A stretch of 64,000 bases of DNA from Neoalteromonas arenosi (lineage in GTDB: Bacteria; Pseudomonadota; Gammaproteobacteria; Enterobacterales; Alteromonadaceae): the NCBI RefSeq assembly GCF_030362855.1, contig NZ_JAUCBP010000011.1:1-64000 (forward strand), written 5' to 3'. Each line of letters begins with the position of its first letter. Position 1 is the first letter of the stretch. This document shows positions 16,398-23,467 of this stretch, in pieces. A program made the position numbers and the translations under genes. A model generated the notes under the pieces. That model saw only the letters and a list, made by a program, of their open reading frames with translations. It was not told the DNA's origin and made no database searches.

Positions 16398-17111
16398 TTA
16401 GGCGGCCGCTTTAGCGTTTGATTTTGTCGCTTTGCTTGCAGGCTTTTTGAATTTTGCTTTCAATTTCGCCAGTTCAGCTTCAACGTTTTCATCCTTTTCA
16501 AGCTGAGCAAACTGCTGCTCTAAGTTCACTGTTTCTGAAGAGGCAGGCACAATATCAAATGCATCAACTTGTGCTTCCAGTGCCTCTACTCGGCTTTCAT
16601 ACTGTTCAAAACGTGTCACAGCGTCTTCTACAGCATTGCTGTTGACGCTTTGCTTAGCCTGTAAACGTACCGCCGAATTTTGTTTGCGAGCAACCAAGCT
16701 TTTCTGCTTAGTCCGCGCTTCGTTTAACTTACTCTGCAAACGCGCCGTATCTTCTTGGATGTTCTTGATTAAATCATCTAGTTGCGTCTTCTGCTCTTCT
16801 AGAGCCGTAACTTTACTTTCAACGCTATGCTTTTCGGTTAGTGCCGCACGCGCTAAATCATCGCGCTGCTTATCAACAGCCAACTGTGCCTTCTGCTGCC
16901 AGTTACTAGCCTGCTTCTGCAAGCCTGAAATTTGTCTATCGAGTTGCTTCTGTTCGGCCAAATTCTTAGCCGCGACAGAGCGGATCTCTACCAAAGTTTC
17001 TTCCATTTCCTGAATGATCAGTCGAATCACTTTCTCAGGGTCTTCCGCCTTGTCTAACATAGCGTTGATGTTGGCTTGCACGATATCTGAAATTCTTGAA
17101 AACATTCCCAT
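16398..17111 (-). CDS. pspA: Phage shock protein A
   Basis: Peripheral membrane protein of the PspA/IM30 (ESCRT-III-like) family that stabilises stressed inner membrane and in E. coli inhibits PspF. The 237-residue sequence begins with the amphipathic helix MGMFSRISDIVQANINAMLD and EDPEKVIRLIIQEME, followed by long coiled coil (about 25-190). The C-terminus is Lys/Ala-rich. It follows the secreted-protein gene by 14 nt and precedes pspC. Confidence 0.95.
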   Translation of the reverse strand: MGMFSRISDIVQANINAMLDKAEDPEKVIRLIIQEMEETLVEIRSVAAKNLAEQKQLDRQISGLQKQASNWQQKAQLAVDKQRDDLARAALTEKHSVESKVTALEEQKTQLDDLIKNIQEDTARLQSKLNEARTKQKSLVARKQNSAVRLQAKQSVNSNAVEDAVTRFEQYESRVEALEAQVDAFDIVPASSETVNLEQQFAQLEKDENVEAELAKLKAKFKKPASKATKSNAKAAA

Positions 17112-17619: not shown

Positions 17620-18642
17620 TCAGTTATTACGTGCAGCAAAATGCTGTTTTGATTGTTCAATCGTGGCTTGGACGGCTTCATAGCCACGCAACAAGATGTC
17701 GCTTTGAGGGTTTCTGCCGGTACCGTTTTGACTGAGATAACGGCGCCAAACACGTCCACCAGGTTGGCCTTGAAATAAACCGAGCATGTGTCGTGCTACG
17801 TGCCACTCTCGTTCGCCCTTGGCAACCTGCTCACGAATATAATCCTGCATTTTGACCACAACCATTTCGCGCGTAGGCACGGCTTGCGAGTCAGAATAAA
17901 ATACCTCATCAACACGCGCGAGCAAATAGGGGTTAGCGTATATTTCGCGCCCCAACATAACACCATCTACATAAGACAAGTGTTGTTTGGCCTCCTCAAA
18001 CGTTTTTATTCCGCCATTGATACTGATAGAAAGGTCGGGGAACTCCTGCTTTAATGCATATACACGTGGATAACTCAGCGGCGGTATATCGCGATTTTCC
18101 TTTGGACTTAGTCCTTGCAGCCAAGCCTTGCGCGCGTGAATAATAAAGGTATCACAGCCTGCATCAGCAACTTCACTCACGAAGCGCGTCAAATCTTCGT
18201 ACTCATCCATGTCATCGATACCGATGCGACATTTAACCGTTACTGGGATATCTACTTCCGCCTGCATCGCTTTAATACAATCAGCGACAACCGTCGGCTC
18301 GGCCATCAAGCATGCACCAAAGCGACCGTTTTTAACCCGATCAGATGGACACCCAACATTAATATTTACCTCGTCATAACCAAGCGCTTGGGCTTTGGCA
18401 CTGCACTGTGCCATTGCCGCAGGATCGGAGCCCCCTAATTGCAGTGCTACCGGATGCTCTTCAGTGTTAAAGCTAAGATAATCACCCTTGCCGAAAATAA
18501 TCGCACCGGTTGTTACCATTTCGGTATACAACAAAGCGTGGCGACTCATAGTCCGATAAAAATAGCGACAGTGTTTATCTGTCCAATCGAGCATGGGCGC
18601 AACGGAAAAAGTGCGATTAAGGCCTTGGTGTTTTGCGTTCAA
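17620..18642 (-). CDS. dusA: tRNA-dihydrouridine(20/20a) synthase DusA
   Basis: FMN enzyme that reduces uridine 20/20a in the tRNA D-loop with NADPH. The 340-residue protein shows [16 protein letters not shown] at the N-terminus, [21 protein letters not shown] with the catalytic cysteine, and [17 protein letters not shown], all specific to DusA. Start is a TTG at 18642; no ATG or GTG lies upstream of the conserved FSVAPMLDW block. Confidence 0.95.
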
Positions 18643-18820
18643 CGTGTTTCTATCTCAATGATTCTGGTGAATGGTAATGGGTCAAATTCTCGCTGCCGCG
18701 AATGATAACACTGCCATTGCTCTAGCGCACTAGCCTGTTGGCTTTGGATCGATAGAAGCTTGATATGGTTTACTTATCCAAACGATTAAAAACTTGATTC
18801 GAAATACTCGTCCAAGTGAC

Positions 18821-18848
18821 TTGCGTTATTACGTATTTCCTCTATATT
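18821..18848 (+). promoter_or_regulatory. Predicted promoter of the RimK-like/GNAT-C39 operon
   Basis: TTGCGT (18821-18826), a 16-bp spacer and TATATT (18843-18848) form a good sigma-70 promoter, predicting a ~25-nt leader before the GTG at 18880. It would drive both the ligase and peptidase genes. Confidence 0.55.
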
Positions 18849-18879
18849 CCGCTCAATTTTTATCCACACTGGAACGTCA

Positions 18880-20331
18880 GTGCCCAACCCGATTATTGTT
18901 GTTGATCACGTTATACCTAACTTGCCAATGACAACTACCCACGAAACCTTTCGTGCATATTTGGATGAATATCCGAAGAAAAATGAAGCAAGTACCTTAG
19001 TTATTAATCTGTGTGCCACCCGCCGCTATTTAGACAATGGTTACTATTGTTCGTTGTTAGCCGAAGCTCGACGGCATAAGGTGCTGCCTACCGTTAATAC
19101 CATTAATGAGTTAACCAGCAATAAAGGCGCGACACCAAAAGCGCTGTTGATCCCCAGTAAGATTTGGAAGAAGACTGACGTCAAAACGCTGGAAACTTGT
19201 AATATCTTTTTAGGCCAGTCGAGTAGTCCTCATCGCGCCAAGCTTGCTGCGCATATTTTTTCAATCTTCCCTGCGCCACTATTGTTAGCTGAACTTAAAA
19301 TTCATAACGGTCAACTTGTTGCCACGGTGCGTTTGCAATCAATAGACGATTTGAACGATTCACAGCGGCGCTTTTTTGCTGAGGCGCTGGAAAAATTCGT
19401 AGCATCGACTTGGCGAGCGAAGAAGAAATCCCAACCATTGCGTTGGGACATGGCTATCTTACATAACCCTGCAGAGGCCACACCGCCAAGCGATGAGAAA
19501 GCGCTAAAGGCGCTTGTTAAAGCAGCAGCCAAACACAACATACATGCGGTATTGATCACTCCCGATCAGGCCGACACTATCGATAACTTCGACGCATTGT
19601 TTATTCGCGAAACTACAGCTATTGATCATCATACCTACCGCTTAGCGCGTTATGCTGAGCAGGCTGGTTTGGTGGTTATCGATGATGCCACATCAATTTT
19701 ACGCAGTTGTAATAAGGTTTATTTACAAGACGCGTTCAGCTATTCCAAAGTGCCAACACCAAAGAGTCTATTTATTGCCGATGCGCAACATAATACCCTA
19801 CTTCAAGTGGTTCAAGCCCTTGGCTTCCCAATGGTGTTGAAGCTGCCAGAAAGTGCATTTTCCTTAGGTGTCCATAAAGTTAAAGATATGGCCGAGCTGC
19901 AAAAGTATGCTGATGATATGTTGGCGCAGTCAGCCTTGATCTTAGCGCAAGAATATATACCCACTGATTTCGATTGGCGCATTGGTATGCTTGCTGGCCG
20001 TCCGCTATATGCCTGTCGCTATTTTATGGCGCGCAATCACTGGCAGATTTACAACCACAATTCCAAACGCTTCAGCTCTGGCGGTTTCGAAACGCTTGCT
20101 GTTGAGGATGTTCCTCAACCGGTATTGGATGCAGCAGTCAAAGCAGCAAAGGTAGTGGGTAACGGCCTATACGGTGTTGATATCAAACAGGTTGAGCAAC
20201 GTGTTTACGTCATTGAAGTCAATGACAACCCGAGTTTAGACGCAAAAATTGAAGATAAGTATTTAGGTAAACAGTTATACGAAGCGATTATGGCTGAGTT
20301 TGCCCTGCGGTTAGAAGCCCATGGTCACTAA
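18880..20331 (+). CDS. RLAN/RimK-type ATP-grasp amino-acid ligase
   Basis: A 483-residue ATP-grasp protein. About residues 5-150 form an alpha/beta domain I recognise as the RLAN domain found before RimK-like ligases. The ATP-grasp fold follows (about 240-480), with KLPESAFSLGVHK, AQEYIPTDFDWRIGM and the Mg-binding VIEVNDNPSLD (about 444-454). RimK-type enzymes attach amino acids, often Glu, to a carboxylate; the substrate here is unknown. Start is GTG with GGA upstream. The next gene overlaps its 3' end by 11 nt, so ligase and acetyltransferase/peptidase are translationally coupled. Confidence 0.88.
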   Translation: MPNPIIVVDHVIPNLPMTTTHETFRAYLDEYPKKNEASTLVINLCATRRYLDNGYYCSLLAEARRHKVLPTVNTINELTSNKGATPKALLIPSKIWKKTDVKTLETCNIFLGQSSSPHRAKLAAHIFSIFPAPLLLAELKIHNGQLVATVRLQSIDDLNDSQRRFFAEALEKFVASTWRAKKKSQPLRWDMAILHNPAEATPPSDEKALKALVKAAAKHNIHAVLITPDQADTIDNFDALFIRETTAIDHHTYRLARYAEQAGLVVIDDATSILRSCNKVYLQDAFSYSKVPTPKSLFIADAQHNTLLQVVQALGFPMVLKLPESAFSLGVHKVKDMAELQKYADDMLAQSALILAQEYIPTDFDWRIGMLAGRPLYACRYFMARNHWQIYNHNSKRFSSGGFETLAVEDVPQPVLDAAVKAAKVVGNGLYGVDIKQVEQRVYVIEVNDNPSLDAKIEDKYLGKQLYEAIMAEFALRLEAHGH

Positions 20332-21472
20332 CTCATCAATATTAGCGGAAACATCCATACGCAGCGCGCAAAAAACCGATTTGGATCAACTGGTTGCGAT
20401 TGAGAATGCCGCCTTTAACAATGACCGGATATCACGCAAGCGATTTGTGCATTGGCTAAAAGCAGAAAATTGCGTTTTCTTAGTTGCACAACGAGAACAA
20501 CGAATCGTTGGTTACGGTTTGGTGCTATTACGCAAAGGTACTCGACTGGCTCGATTGTATTCAATCGCGATTGAACAACACTGCGCCGGACAAGGTATTG
20601 GCAAAGCTCTATTGTTAGCGCTTGAACATGAAACACTCAAGACTGGCCGCTTGTACATGCGCCTTGAAGTCGCAAGCAATAATACAGCTGCCCAAAGATT
20701 GTATTTGAGCATTGGTTACAAGCCCTTTGGTAGCTATGCCGACTATTACGACAACCACATAGATGCGATAAGGATGCAGAAAAGCATTCGTCAGGCAGCT
20801 GAGCGTGACAAGCTGCCATGGTATCCATGGTACCGGCAAACGACACCTTTCACTTGTGGTCCAGCGTCATTAATCATGGCAATGCAACACCTTGAACGCC
20901 GTGTGGAAGCAAGCCAAACCCTGGAGTTGGCGCTGTGGCGCGAAGCAACCACTATTTACATGACCTCTGGACACGGCGGATGTCACCCATATGGTTTGGC
21001 CTTGGCAGCGATACATCGTGGTTTTGATGCTGCCATTCTGGTTTCACAAACGCACGGTTTATTTGCTGATGGCGTGCGCGACGAACACAAAAAGCAAGTA
21101 ATGCATATCGTCGAACAAGACTTCGCCGCACAATTAAGTAAAAAGCAGGTACACATAGACATTGGGACTGCTAACAGCGATTGGATTGAGGCACAATTAA
21201 AAGATGGGAACGCGGTGTTAACCCTCATCAGCACCTATCATATGACAGGTTATAAAACGCCACATTGGGTATGTATTACGCACTGTGATCAAGACTGCTT
21301 TTATTTGCACGATCCCGATATGGATGAAGATTCCGACAATCCATTTGAATTTCAGCATATTCCTGTGGGTATAGATGACTTGGTTGCTATGTGTGGCTAC
21401 GGCAAGCGTAAACTCCACGCGTTTGTGGTGCTCAGCCGTAGCGCTAACGCTCTGCCATCAACAGTTAAATAA
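20321..21472 (+). CDS. GNAT acetyltransferase fused to C39-like peptidase (DUF3335)
   Basis: Two-domain protein of 383 residues. An N-terminal GNAT domain (about 12-150) has the acetyl-CoA loop CAGQGIGKAL and LEVASNNTAAQRLYLSIGY. The C-terminal part (about 165-375) is a papain-like C39-family fold with catalytic Cys179 in TPFTCGPAS, His315 in TPHWVCI and Asp in HDPDMDED. The ATG at 20321 lies inside the ligase gene. The pairing suggests a pathway that builds, acetylates and trims a peptide tag or small peptide (inference). Its stop overlaps fghA by 15 nt. Confidence 0.87.
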   Translation: MVTNSSILAETSIRSAQKTDLDQLVAIENAAFNNDRISRKRFVHWLKAENCVFLVAQREQRIVGYGLVLLRKGTRLARLYSIAIEQHCAGQGIGKALLLALEHETLKTGRLYMRLEVASNNTAAQRLYLSIGYKPFGSYADYYDNHIDAIRMQKSIRQAAERDKLPWYPWYRQTTPFTCGPASLIMAMQHLERRVEASQTLELALWREATTIYMTSGHGGCHPYGLALAAIHRGFDAAILVSQTHGLFADGVRDEHKKQVMHIVEQDFAAQLSKKQVHIDIGTANSDWIEAQLKDGNAVLTLISTYHMTGYKTPHWVCITHCDQDCFYLHDPDMDEDSDNPFEFQHIPVGIDDLVAMCGYGKRKLHAFVVLSRSANALPSTVK

Positions 21473-22309
21473 ATGCTCTGCGTGAAAAGCTAAGTGTTTA
21501 TCTATAAAGGTACTGATGAAGTAATAACTGTGGTCATACCCAGTGTGTAATCCGTAATCGATTTTAACATCTTTGTCTTGCGCGACTTTGAGGAAAGCCT
21601 CAGGGTGCAGCTGATTGGACAAAAACTCATCTTCACTGCCCTGATCAATGCGGATCGGGAGTGTTGAACCACCGCGTTTTAACAGCGCTGTGGCATCGTA
21701 CTCCAGCCACGCTTGTTGATTGTTTCCCAAATAGCCAGTAAAAGCTTTTTGTCCCCATGAACATTCCGTCGGATTGCAAATCGGACTAAACGCTGAGATT
21801 GAGCAATATTTTTCTTGATTGCGCAGACCAATGACTAGCGCACCATGCCCCCCCATAGAGTGTCCGCAAATGGCTCGCCGTTGATTGACTGGAAAATTGC
21901 TCTCAATCAGCGCCGGTAGTTCACTCACTACATAGTCATACATTTGGTAGTTCAGCGCGTAGGTGGGAGACGTTGCATTGACATAAAACCCTGCGCCTAA
22001 GCCAAAGTCATAACTGCCATCCGGATCATCAGCCACACCGTATCCACGAGGACTGGTGTCTGGCATTACGATTGCCACATTTAAATCTGCGGCAGCGCGA
22101 AATGCACCGGCCTTTTGCGCAAAGTTCTGATCGTTGCAGGTTAAACCCGAGAGCCAGTAAAGCACTGGAACAGGATGAGAAGAGACATGACTAACTGCCA
22201 AAGGCGGCAGAAACACACTTGCTGTCATATTACAGTTATTAGTCTTCGATGCATGTTCAATACGCACCAACTCACCTTCAAACACGCGCTGTTTCGCTAC
22301 TATTTCCAT
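21458..22309 (-). CDS. fghA: S-formylglutathione hydrolase
   Basis: Serine esterase (alpha/beta hydrolase, esterase D family) that hydrolyses S-formylglutathione to formate and glutathione, the second step of formaldehyde detoxification. The nucleophile elbow GHSMGGHGAL, the early YWLSGLTCNDQNF block and the C-terminal DHSYYFI histidine are present; 283 residues is usual. GGAGG precedes the ATG. It follows frmA by 6 nt. Confidence 0.95.
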   Translation of the reverse strand: MEIVAKQRVFEGELVRIEHASKTNNCNMTASVFLPPLAVSHVSSHPVPVLYWLSGLTCNDQNFAQKAGAFRAAADLNVAIVMPDTSPRGYGVADDPDGSYDFGLGAGFYVNATSPTYALNYQMYDYVVSELPALIESNFPVNQRRAICGHSMGGHGALVIGLRNQEKYCSISAFSPICNPTECSWGQKAFTGYLGNNQQAWLEYDATALLKRGGSTLPIRIDQGSEDEFLSNQLHPEAFLKVAQDKDVKIDYGLHTGYDHSYYFISTFIDKHLAFHAEHLFNC

Positions 22310-22315
22310 ACGCTG

Positions 22316-23467
<1,152 letters not shown>

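Follow-up and report, generated by a model that had tools for sequence, protein, structure and literature searches.

Two overlapping genes on the + strand of the window (the whole 64,000-nt stretch of DNA analyzed here) encode an RLAN-ATP-grasp ligase (18880 to 20331) and a fusion of a GNAT acetyltransferase with a papain-like DUF3335 domain (20321 to 21472), and the pairing of ligase and DUF3335 across genomes is not due to chance. The pair is a member of an RLAN-ligase operon type that is already known. The comparison reported here sets limits on that type: the ligase and the GNAT are the steadier core, the peptidase can be absent, and one clade carries another amino-acid ligase in place of the GNAT. 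We tentatively propose that the two proteins act as one cytosolic module that may make and turn over a small peptide-like metabolite with a capped amine.

RLAN-ATP-grasp ligase

The ligase gene (ORF list and Pfam) has a GTG start and encodes 483 aa. The sequence-only reading of this region described an ATP-grasp ligase with an extra N-terminal domain, and Pfam agrees: an RLAN domain (PF14401) occupies residues 25 to 169 (18952 to 19386; 120.8 bits against a cutoff of 25, E = 5e-35) and is followed by a RimK/ATP-grasp match (37.6 bits against a cutoff of 21). Structure comparison assigns residues 186 to 483 (19435 to 20328) to a pre-ATP-grasp plus ATP-grasp part, for which the nearest folds are LysX/ArgX (Z = 28.1 to 28.3; VIA), with RimK nearly tied at 27.3; the queries were full-length proteins, and the matches listed span the ATP-grasp and GNAT regions. 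The idea that RLAN is a duplicated pre-ATP-grasp domain was rejected (profile-profile probability of 5.6% or less). The RLAN profile returned seven matches in the PDB, none of them significant, and the top-ranked one, a designed PPR protein at E = 0.049, was taken as chance.

Residues K279, K321, D434, E446, and N448 show no variation in two alignments of 45 (A3) and 31 (A1) rows. The last two form the E-x-N (20215 to 20223), which we take to be the Mg/ATP residues of the ATP-grasp fold. E358, which aligns with the ADP-contacting E178 of RimK, does vary and is kept in 39/45 and 26/31 rows, respectively. At the position of FRSN in RimK, as placed by aligning the ligase with the RimK of its own genome, the protein carries HWQI (residues 387 to 390; 20038 to 20049), and HWQ[IV] is present there in 116 of 117 ligases. 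Since this signature is nearly constant, the substrate that is ligated may not differ from one system to another.

The top NCBIfam match is LysX_arch, at 73.6 bits far under its cutoff of 275.6, and the scores against rimK_fam (69.9 bits; cutoff, 143.4) and against TIGR03103, the NAGGN synthetase (28.2 bits; cutoff, 569), are also below threshold. With RimK, and with the RimABK system for glutamylation of ribosomal protein S6, the window has in common the ATP-grasp fold, the ATP lysines, E-x-N, and the pairing of a ligase with a protease; it differs in the additional RLAN domain, in HWQI for FRSN, and in the subthreshold score. The ligase probably joins amino acids.

GNAT-DUF3335 fusion protein

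The second gene (ORF list and Pfam) encodes a single protein of 383 aa in which an acetyltransferase is fused to a papain-like peptidase, as the sequence-only reading had it. Four GNAT families exceed their Pfam cutoffs within about residues 13 to 156, and Pfam, NCBIfam, and structure comparison place a RimI/Ard1-like half at 20357 to 20788. DUF3335 occupies residues 168 to 371 (20822 to 21433; 276 bits against a cutoff of 25, E = 2e-82), and the HMM searches proposed earlier for RLAN, RimK ATP-grasp, and DUF3335 all gave scores over the Pfam cutoffs. In fold, the GNAT half comes nearest to the protein N-terminal acetyltransferases RimI and Ard1 (Z of about 22.5), and the fusion scores below the cutoff of the RimI model TIGR01575 (80.0 versus 86.4 bits). 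A stand-alone relative from Parabacteroides passes that cutoff, at 87.5 bits. E116 of the GNAT is kept in 44/44 and 14/14 rows, and Y128 is kept in 44/44 and 11/14 rows, of two alignments comprising the window with 43 relatives (A4) and the window with 13 other relatives (A2).

A triad of Cys179, His315, and an Asp had been suggested. The first two residues were correctly placed (codons at 20855 to 20857, encoding the presumed nucleophile, and at 21263 to 21265), and the Asp is D331 (21311 to 21313). All three, along with Q173, are unchanged in every row of both alignments, and no loss of catalytic residues was seen. In the AlphaFold2 model of the fusion (mean pLDDT, 91.3), C179 opens helix 179 to 191, H315 lies at the start of strand 314 to 322, and D331 comes after strand 326 to 330; judged by the order of these elements, not by distances, the modeled C/H/D residues follow a papain-like arrangement. 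By Pfam, the fusion is free of ABC transporter domains, unlike the C39 double-glycine peptidases of ABC transporters. The best PDB matches to the DUF3335 profile were BtrH_N-type and C39 proteins, with a nonsignificant E of about 0.01. At an E value of 0.01, 29 DUF3335 halves match Peptidase_C39_2 (27 halves), Peptidase_C39 (15), Guanylate_cyc_2 (13), and Phytochelatin (2).

Gene overlap and genome setting

Both open reading frames were recovered as originally described, with an overlap of 11 nt (20321 to 20331, + strand; ORF coordinates) that suggests that the ligase and the fusion are cotranscribed. Their placement behind one promoter was not borne out: a sigma-70 scan gave no + strand site upstream of 18880, and its three matches in 18600 to 21700 fall under the shuffled mean of 5.2. 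The order is ligase first, as in the nearest relatives in the ligase tree. The same genome has a separate RimI gene (99.8 bits) and a separate RimK (272 bits, on another contig), and no DUF2817 was found in it. Unlike some related operons, the window pair has no DUF2817, GCS2, or FGase alongside. Repeats in the region consist of short two-copy matches only.

Pairing and locus architecture across genomes

Of the 274 genomes sampled from the class, 63 have RLAN, with one match in each, which marks it as part of a common enzyme system. Of the 44 genomes in this sample with a strong DUF3335 match, 43 have RLAN (Fisher test, 1.6e-33), 4 weak DUF3335 matches of 48 (G004, G016, G049, and G116) having been dropped before counting, and the same-contig RLAN/DUF3335 pairs are within 6 kb and neighbors in 40 of 40 cases. 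The co-occurrence survey thus found the two genes paired in other genomes. Among the four dropped matches, two reach the cutoff with their neighbors and two are in RLAN genomes. The GNAT-C39 gene comes first in 32 of the 40 pairs classwide, and the pairing persists through five or more changes of arrangement in a tree of 117 of 121 ligases, which includes near-duplicates (e.g., L073/L109 and L038/L049) and excludes four ligases without a full-length ORF (L044, L048, L054, and L101).

The pairing of these families in an RLAN-RimK/GNAT-DUF3335 operon was reportedly described by Iyer et al. in 2009 (Mol Biosyst). The window has the same domain families and is ligase first, whereas the class sample is mostly GNAT-C39 first. 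PMC10318531 cites that study for GNAT fusions of DUF3335, in line with the sequence-only reading, which gave the operon type as known from comparative genomics, and PMC4431377 cites the operon work as well. A literature search turned up no product assigned to the operon type, in agreement with the sequence-only reading, which knew of no assigned substrate.

Among the best 80 of 583 confirmed relatives, 17 loci have the ligase and GNAT without the DUF3335 half (absence at the locus only), as do 3 of 16 order-level loci, and in five class genomes with GNAT-only loci there is no DUF3335 match at an E value of 0.001 anywhere in the genome. The GNAT is thus the steadier partner of the ligase, whereas the peptidase half has been lost or gained repeatedly. 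The suggestion that the system adds, caps, and removes amino acids therefore stands as to domain identities and coupling but not as to trimming at the core of the module, because many relatives keep the ligase and GNAT without DUF3335. No GNAT was found near the ligase in 10 of the best 80 of 583 relatives' loci; in six of these, the ligase is within about 1 kb of the sequence end (L082, L086, L120, L121, L145, and L147), and in four it is not near an end (L084, L091, L092, and L094). No GNAT lies within about 6 kb of a P. aeruginosa ligase. The TonB receptors near some loci fall by eye into two kinds, each shared by related loci, and were taken as synteny.

Second operon type and variable partners

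A second arrangement (type II) has the order C39, RLAN ligase, GCS2, and N-formylglutamate-amidohydrolase-like enzyme (FGase), with no acetyltransferase. It is complete in 10 loci, its families were confirmed with Pfam on example loci, and its ligases form one clade of 12 in the 117-row tree. The best 80 of 583 relatives are the closest ones, and type II is therefore underrepresented among them. GCS2 enzymes use free glutamate, which favors a small-molecule product.

DUF2817 adjoins the pair in 14 of the best 80 of 583 relatives' loci, and one copy has an AstE_AspA match below threshold (19.4 of 25 bits). Its co-occurrence as such does not reach significance (4 of 10 strong matches; Fisher test, 0.25), in a count that left out the weak matches found in 14 of 24 genomes, including some that had been flagged as exceeding the cutoff.

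Proposed function and alternatives

In the proposed module, the ligase would use ATP to activate a carboxylate and couple this group to an amino acid through the latter's amine, as in LysX, ArgX, and RimK. The RimI-like GNAT would acetylate a free alpha-amine on the substrate or the product, and the papain-like half would hydrolyze or transfer an amide bond so that the product is limited or recycled. The distantly aspartoacylase-like DUF2817 of some relatives may remove the acyl cap; in type II, GCS2 would supply gamma-glutamyl as the cap in place of the acetyl of type I, and the FGase-like amidohydrolase would take it off. In favor of this scheme are the conserved pairing, the loci that keep ligase and GNAT without DUF3335, the GCS2 of type II, DUF2817 next to some pairs, the lack of a broadly conserved candidate substrate among nearby small ORFs in the scan described below, and the separate RimI and RimK of the genome. 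Against it count the loci without a nearby GNAT, the nonsignificant co-occurrence of DUF2817 and its absence from the window's genome, and the small share of listed family genomes that have RLAN (4 of 10, the window's own included).

This scheme would follow the logic of the N-acetylaspartate/N-acetylaspartylglutamate (NAA/NAAG) cycle and of NAGGN osmolyte synthesis. The mammalian NAA/NAAG cycle comprises NAT8L, RIMKLA/B, a peptidase, and aspartoacylase; the operon would share its four activity types (a GNAT, a RimK-like ligase, a peptidase, and an aspartoacylase-like DUF2817 that some relatives have), whereas the mammalian peptidase and deacylase come from other families. NAGGN synthesis employs a GNAT, an ATP-grasp enzyme, and a peptidase to yield an N-acetyl dipeptide, but there (TIGR03103 and others) the GNAT is fused to the ATP-grasp part, and the window protein scores far too low for that model. 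Glutathione-type synthesis (GCS2 plus ATP-grasp) resembles the combination of GCS2 with the ligase in type II relatives, whereas the window belongs to type I and has no GCS2 next to the pair.

The substrate could also be a protein, because the GNAT fold is nearest that of RimI/Ard1 and the ligase is nearest the protein-acting LysX/ArgX and RimK, and because the ligase co-occurs with DUF155/RMND1-like proteins, the human member of which has been linked to mitochondrial disease. RimABK likewise couples ligase and protease, both acting on a single ribosomal protein, according to PMC11957791, in which RimB is retropepsin-like, whereas the window peptidase is papain-like. We nevertheless regard modification of a protein as rather unlikely, since HWQI replaces the FRSN of RimK, the scores are under the rimK and rimI cutoffs, and the GCS2 ligase of type II favors a peptide metabolite over protein modification. 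A BLAST scan (E value of 1e-4) of ORFs that encode 22 to 109 aa and lie no more than 3.5 kb from the ligase, a range in which shorter or very diverse peptides are missed, also gave no broadly conserved candidate substrate, although a target could be encoded anywhere. The widest family occurs in five Marinobacter loci, a cold-shock-like family occurs in four loci, and three close relatives of the window (L077, L081, and L083) share a 75-aa ORF that begins with a signal-like stretch.

The scan bears equally on a LysW/LysX-like carrier pathway, in which the ligase would load an amino acid on a small protein, other enzymes would alter it, and the peptidase would release it. LysX/ArgX lead the structural matches, with RimK close behind, and the best NCBIfam match is to LysX_arch; however, the cutoff of that model is missed by far and no broadly conserved carrier-like ORF was found nearby (a carrier gene may lie elsewhere), making this pathway improbable. 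Still less probable is a graspetide-like RiPP pathway, in which the RimK-like ATP-grasp enzyme would act together with the GNAT and the C39 peptidase to mature a ribosomal precursor. In microviridin pathways, ATP-grasp ligases occur together with a GNAT and a C39 transporter. C39-ABC proteins are among the common neighbors of graspetide ligases in PMC8939145, but the fusion lacks an ABC transporter domain, distant taxa have the same set of genes with the catalytic residues unchanged, and no precursor-like ORF with broad conservation emerged from the scan, although precursors may be highly variable. A phage defense or toxin-antitoxin pair, as overlapping genes, a protease-like member, and a patchy distribution (RLAN in no more than 4 of the 10 genomes listed for the window's family, its own included) might suggest, is just as improbable, given that neither protein has a PADLOC match at an E value of 0.001, the GNAT-C39 protein (the one used in that search) matches no phage record, 7 of the 12 plasmid records with a ligase relative are Azospirillum replicons of over 1.7 Mb, and no RLAN genome of the class has more than a single RLAN match.

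Link to DUF155/RMND1

Genomes with DUF155 have RLAN in 20 of 36 and 9 of 9 cases in two samples, 1 weak DUF155 match of 37 having been dropped before counting, and a DUF155/RMND1-family gene is sometimes found inside the operon, as in the Glaciecola-type locus L077, where the ligase, GNAT-C39, and DUF155 genes follow one another. Human RMND1 is a disease gene (PMC7564844). The co-occurrence ties the ligase system to bacterial relatives of this protein. An extension of the capped-metabolite proposal, speculative and in our estimate unlikely, is that the RLAN ligase with HWQI makes a small amine-capped peptide (acetyl in type I and gamma-glutamyl in type II), served by interchangeable decapping enzymes (DUF2817 and FGase) and papain-like hydrolases and used or sensed via a tail-anchored DUF155/RMND1-like membrane protein. 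Such a system would be a widespread, undescribed bacterial counterpart of N-acetylaspartylglutamate/glutathione-type metabolism, and if this is true, the bacterial relatives of RMND1 would gain their first biochemical context.

Gene pair and conserved residues

The ligase gene, with RLAN and RimK-like ATP-grasp domains (18880-20331, + strand; 483 amino acids), and the GNAT-DUF3335 gene (20321-21472, + strand; 383 amino acids), both assigned by Pfam domains, overlap by 11 nt, as the sequence-only reading had stated and ORF coordinates on the + strand confirm. The single promoter that it placed before them was not borne out: a scan of the + strand ahead of the ligase gene found no promoter-like site, so that "one promoter" is unproven. 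Upstream, dusA is divergent from the pair. Directly downstream and convergent, the gene encoding S-formylglutathione hydrolase shares 15 nt with the pair's 3' end, and that of the glutathione-dependent formaldehyde dehydrogenase, also named S-(hydroxymethyl)glutathione dehydrogenase, lies beyond it (together 21458-23446, - strand). The window also holds a gene for PspA (phage shock protein A; 16398-17111, - strand) and, at its edge, the 5' portion of a gene for 16S rRNA (1-347, - strand).

Ligase residues K279, K321, D434, E446, and N448 are conserved in every row of two alignments (45/45 in A3 and 31/31 in A1), with E358 less constant (39/45 and 26/31). The proposed papain-like Cys179-His315-Asp triad is upheld, with Q173, C179, H315, and D331 found throughout the GNAT-DUF3335 alignments (44/44 rows in A4 and 14/14 in A2); on the GNAT side, E116 is present in all rows of both and Y128 in 44/44 and 11/14, respectively. 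The window's own sequence is counted as a row in each of the four alignments. These residues may act in catalysis, by analogy with RimI, papain, and ATP-grasp biochemistry. For RimK itself, PMC10092738 gives K141, E178, F210, S212, and N213 as contacts to ADP.

AlphaFold2 models had mean pLDDT values of 91.3 (GNAT-DUF3335 protein) and 87.1 (ligase). In structure comparisons, the ligase part was closest to LysX/ArgX (Z of 28.1 to 28.3), with RimK almost equal at 27.3, and the GNAT half was closest to Ard1 (22.8) and RimI (22.7). Because these nearest folds belong to enzymes acting on proteins, a protein-directed module is possible. The separate RimI and RimK encoded elsewhere in the genome argue against S18 or S6 as its target.

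Partners of the ligase across genomes

Among 274 genomes of the class, 63 have RLAN, 44 have a strong DUF3335 match (four weak matches were left out), and 43 have both. The pairing extends beyond the window, as anticipated: in 40 of the 40 cases with RLAN and strong DUF3335 on the same contig, the two lie within 6 kb, with GNAT-C39 (GNAT-DUF3335) first in 32, divergent genes in 5, the ligase first in 2, and convergent genes in 1. The nearest relatives have the window's ligase-first order, and the arrangement changed at least five times on a tree of 117 ligases. RLAN was found in 31 of 148 genomes of the order and, within the family, in 4 of the 10 genomes listed, the window's own included. At 16 of the order-level loci, GNAT adjoins the ligase in all 16 and includes DUF3335 in 13.

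Among the 80 named loci, the closest of at least 583 confirmed relatives, GNAT-C39 is present at 53 loci (with DUF2817 at 14 and an extra GNAT at 1), GNAT without C39 at 17, and neither at 10, where the ligase is about 1 kb or less from the end of the available DNA in 6 and not in 4. On the tree, the GNAT-C39 label requires 11 changes and the GNAT label 10; the starred branches account for a minimum of 7. DUF3335 was not found at an E value of 0.001 in the five class genomes whose locus is GNAT-only (G040, G171, G177, G260, and G272). The GNAT-only loci and the label changes indicate that the DUF3335 peptidase is accessory and that the acetyltransferase is the steadier partner of the ligase.

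Several loci carry further genes. DUF2817, distantly aspartoacylase-like, accompanies the ligase and GNAT-C39 at L104, L107, L109, L110, L111, L114, and others and at L057, L061, L073, and L075; in all, it is found at 14 of the 80 named loci and at four unnamed ones. Genes resembling glutamate dehydrogenase, named by eye, lie within 5 kb of the set at L038, L049, L079, L084, L135, and L149. L079 combines the ligase with two acetyltransferase genes, one a stand-alone GNAT and the other a GNAT-C39, and DUF155 lies between these two. In a Pseudomonas aeruginosa plasmid record (L211, 5842-7431), the RLAN ligase has no GNAT within about 6 kb, and its neighborhood includes a glutamate/aspartate ABC transporter and a gamma-glutamyltransferase. 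The stand-alone GNAT by the Parabacteroides goldsteinii ligase (L142, 9373-9828) scores 87.5 bits against the NCBI rimI cutoff of 86.4, so such genes may carry the name RimI. L077, L081, and L083, three close relatives of the window, have in common a 75-amino-acid ORF whose start is signal-like; in L077 (7500-7727) it is divergent from the ligase gene.

DUF155 as a third partner

DUF155 (RMND1/Sif2 family) is near the ligase set at 10 of 118 loci, two type II loci (described below) also adjoin it, and it overlaps a partner gene in L077, L109, and L134 when longest-ORF starts are used. Genes of this kind lie beside or overlap the set at L077, L081, L109, L110, L134, L195, and others. In the class sample, RLAN is present in 20 of 36 DUF155 genomes (Fisher, 4.8e-6), of which 11 have both on the same contig, 8 within 8 kb; counted by family, the figure is 15 (p 0.001, 171 families taken). 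In a second sample, at order level, RLAN occurs in 9/9 DUF155 genomes (p 2.8e-7) or, by genus, 4/4 (p 0.001). Kinship makes genomes nonindependent, and the values by genus and by family are therefore safer. Adjacency at this level is confined to one genome of the window's own family (G361, locus L195: ligase, GNAT-C39, DUF155). All six DUF155 proteins checked, of the 10, have a hydrophobic C-terminal stretch, like that of tail-anchored proteins. In the window's own genome, neither DUF155 nor DUF2817 gave a match.

Type II operons and a possible product

GCS2 has been mentioned as a neighbor of RLAN. Among the 20 class genomes with RLAN and no strong DUF3335 match, a stand-alone C39-like gene or GCS2 lies beside the ligase gene in 13 and GNAT alone in 5; of the other two, G116 has none of these partners and G151 has a broken-up ligase. 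The complete type II order (C39, RLAN ligase, GCS2, and FGase, an N-formylglutamate-amidohydrolase-like enzyme) occurs in 10 class genomes, and the 12 full-length type II ligases form one clade in the 117-ligase tree (support, 100). A Legionella adelaidensis record has RimK, GCS2, and N-formylglutamate amidohydrolase annotated consecutively. DWR and E-[VIL]-NDNP occur in 117/117 ligases and HWQ[IV] in 116/117, the exception being NWQI. In an alignment with the RimK of the window's genome, HWQ[IV] falls on the FRSN stretch. As the signature is common to type I (ligase with GNAT, the window's type) and type II, the ligation substrate may be the same in both.

The source credited for the operon type, Iyer 2009, is reportedly a comparative-genomics study. 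That the type is known from comparative genomics, as the sequence-only reading stated, holds through a citation in PMC10318531, which credits the DUF3335-GNAT fusion to Iyer 2009; GNAT capping is predicted for other ATP-grasp families in PMC4431377. The literature searched, with most subscription journals and all bioRxiv preprints outside it, assigns no product, so the window's pair belongs to a known, uncharacterized kind. The DUF155 link, the steady-GNAT pattern, and the type II gene set were not found in the portions of that literature covered, and they may already be in print.

As the likeliest reading, we tentatively suggest that a carboxylate-amine ligase and an N-acetyltransferase, with hydrolases in turnover, make a small peptide-like compound whose amine is capped. 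For synthesis, the steady pair would suffice, and the papain-like half, or DUF2817 in relatives, could break the compound down. The four activities of the NAA/NAAG cycle match those predicted for the ligase, GNAT, peptidase, and, in relatives, DUF2817, and NAGGN synthesis is similar. GCS2 enzymes form gamma-glutamyl amides from free glutamate. Type II operons have a GCS2 ligase and an FGase-like amidohydrolase and no acetyltransferase, which favors a small-molecule product.
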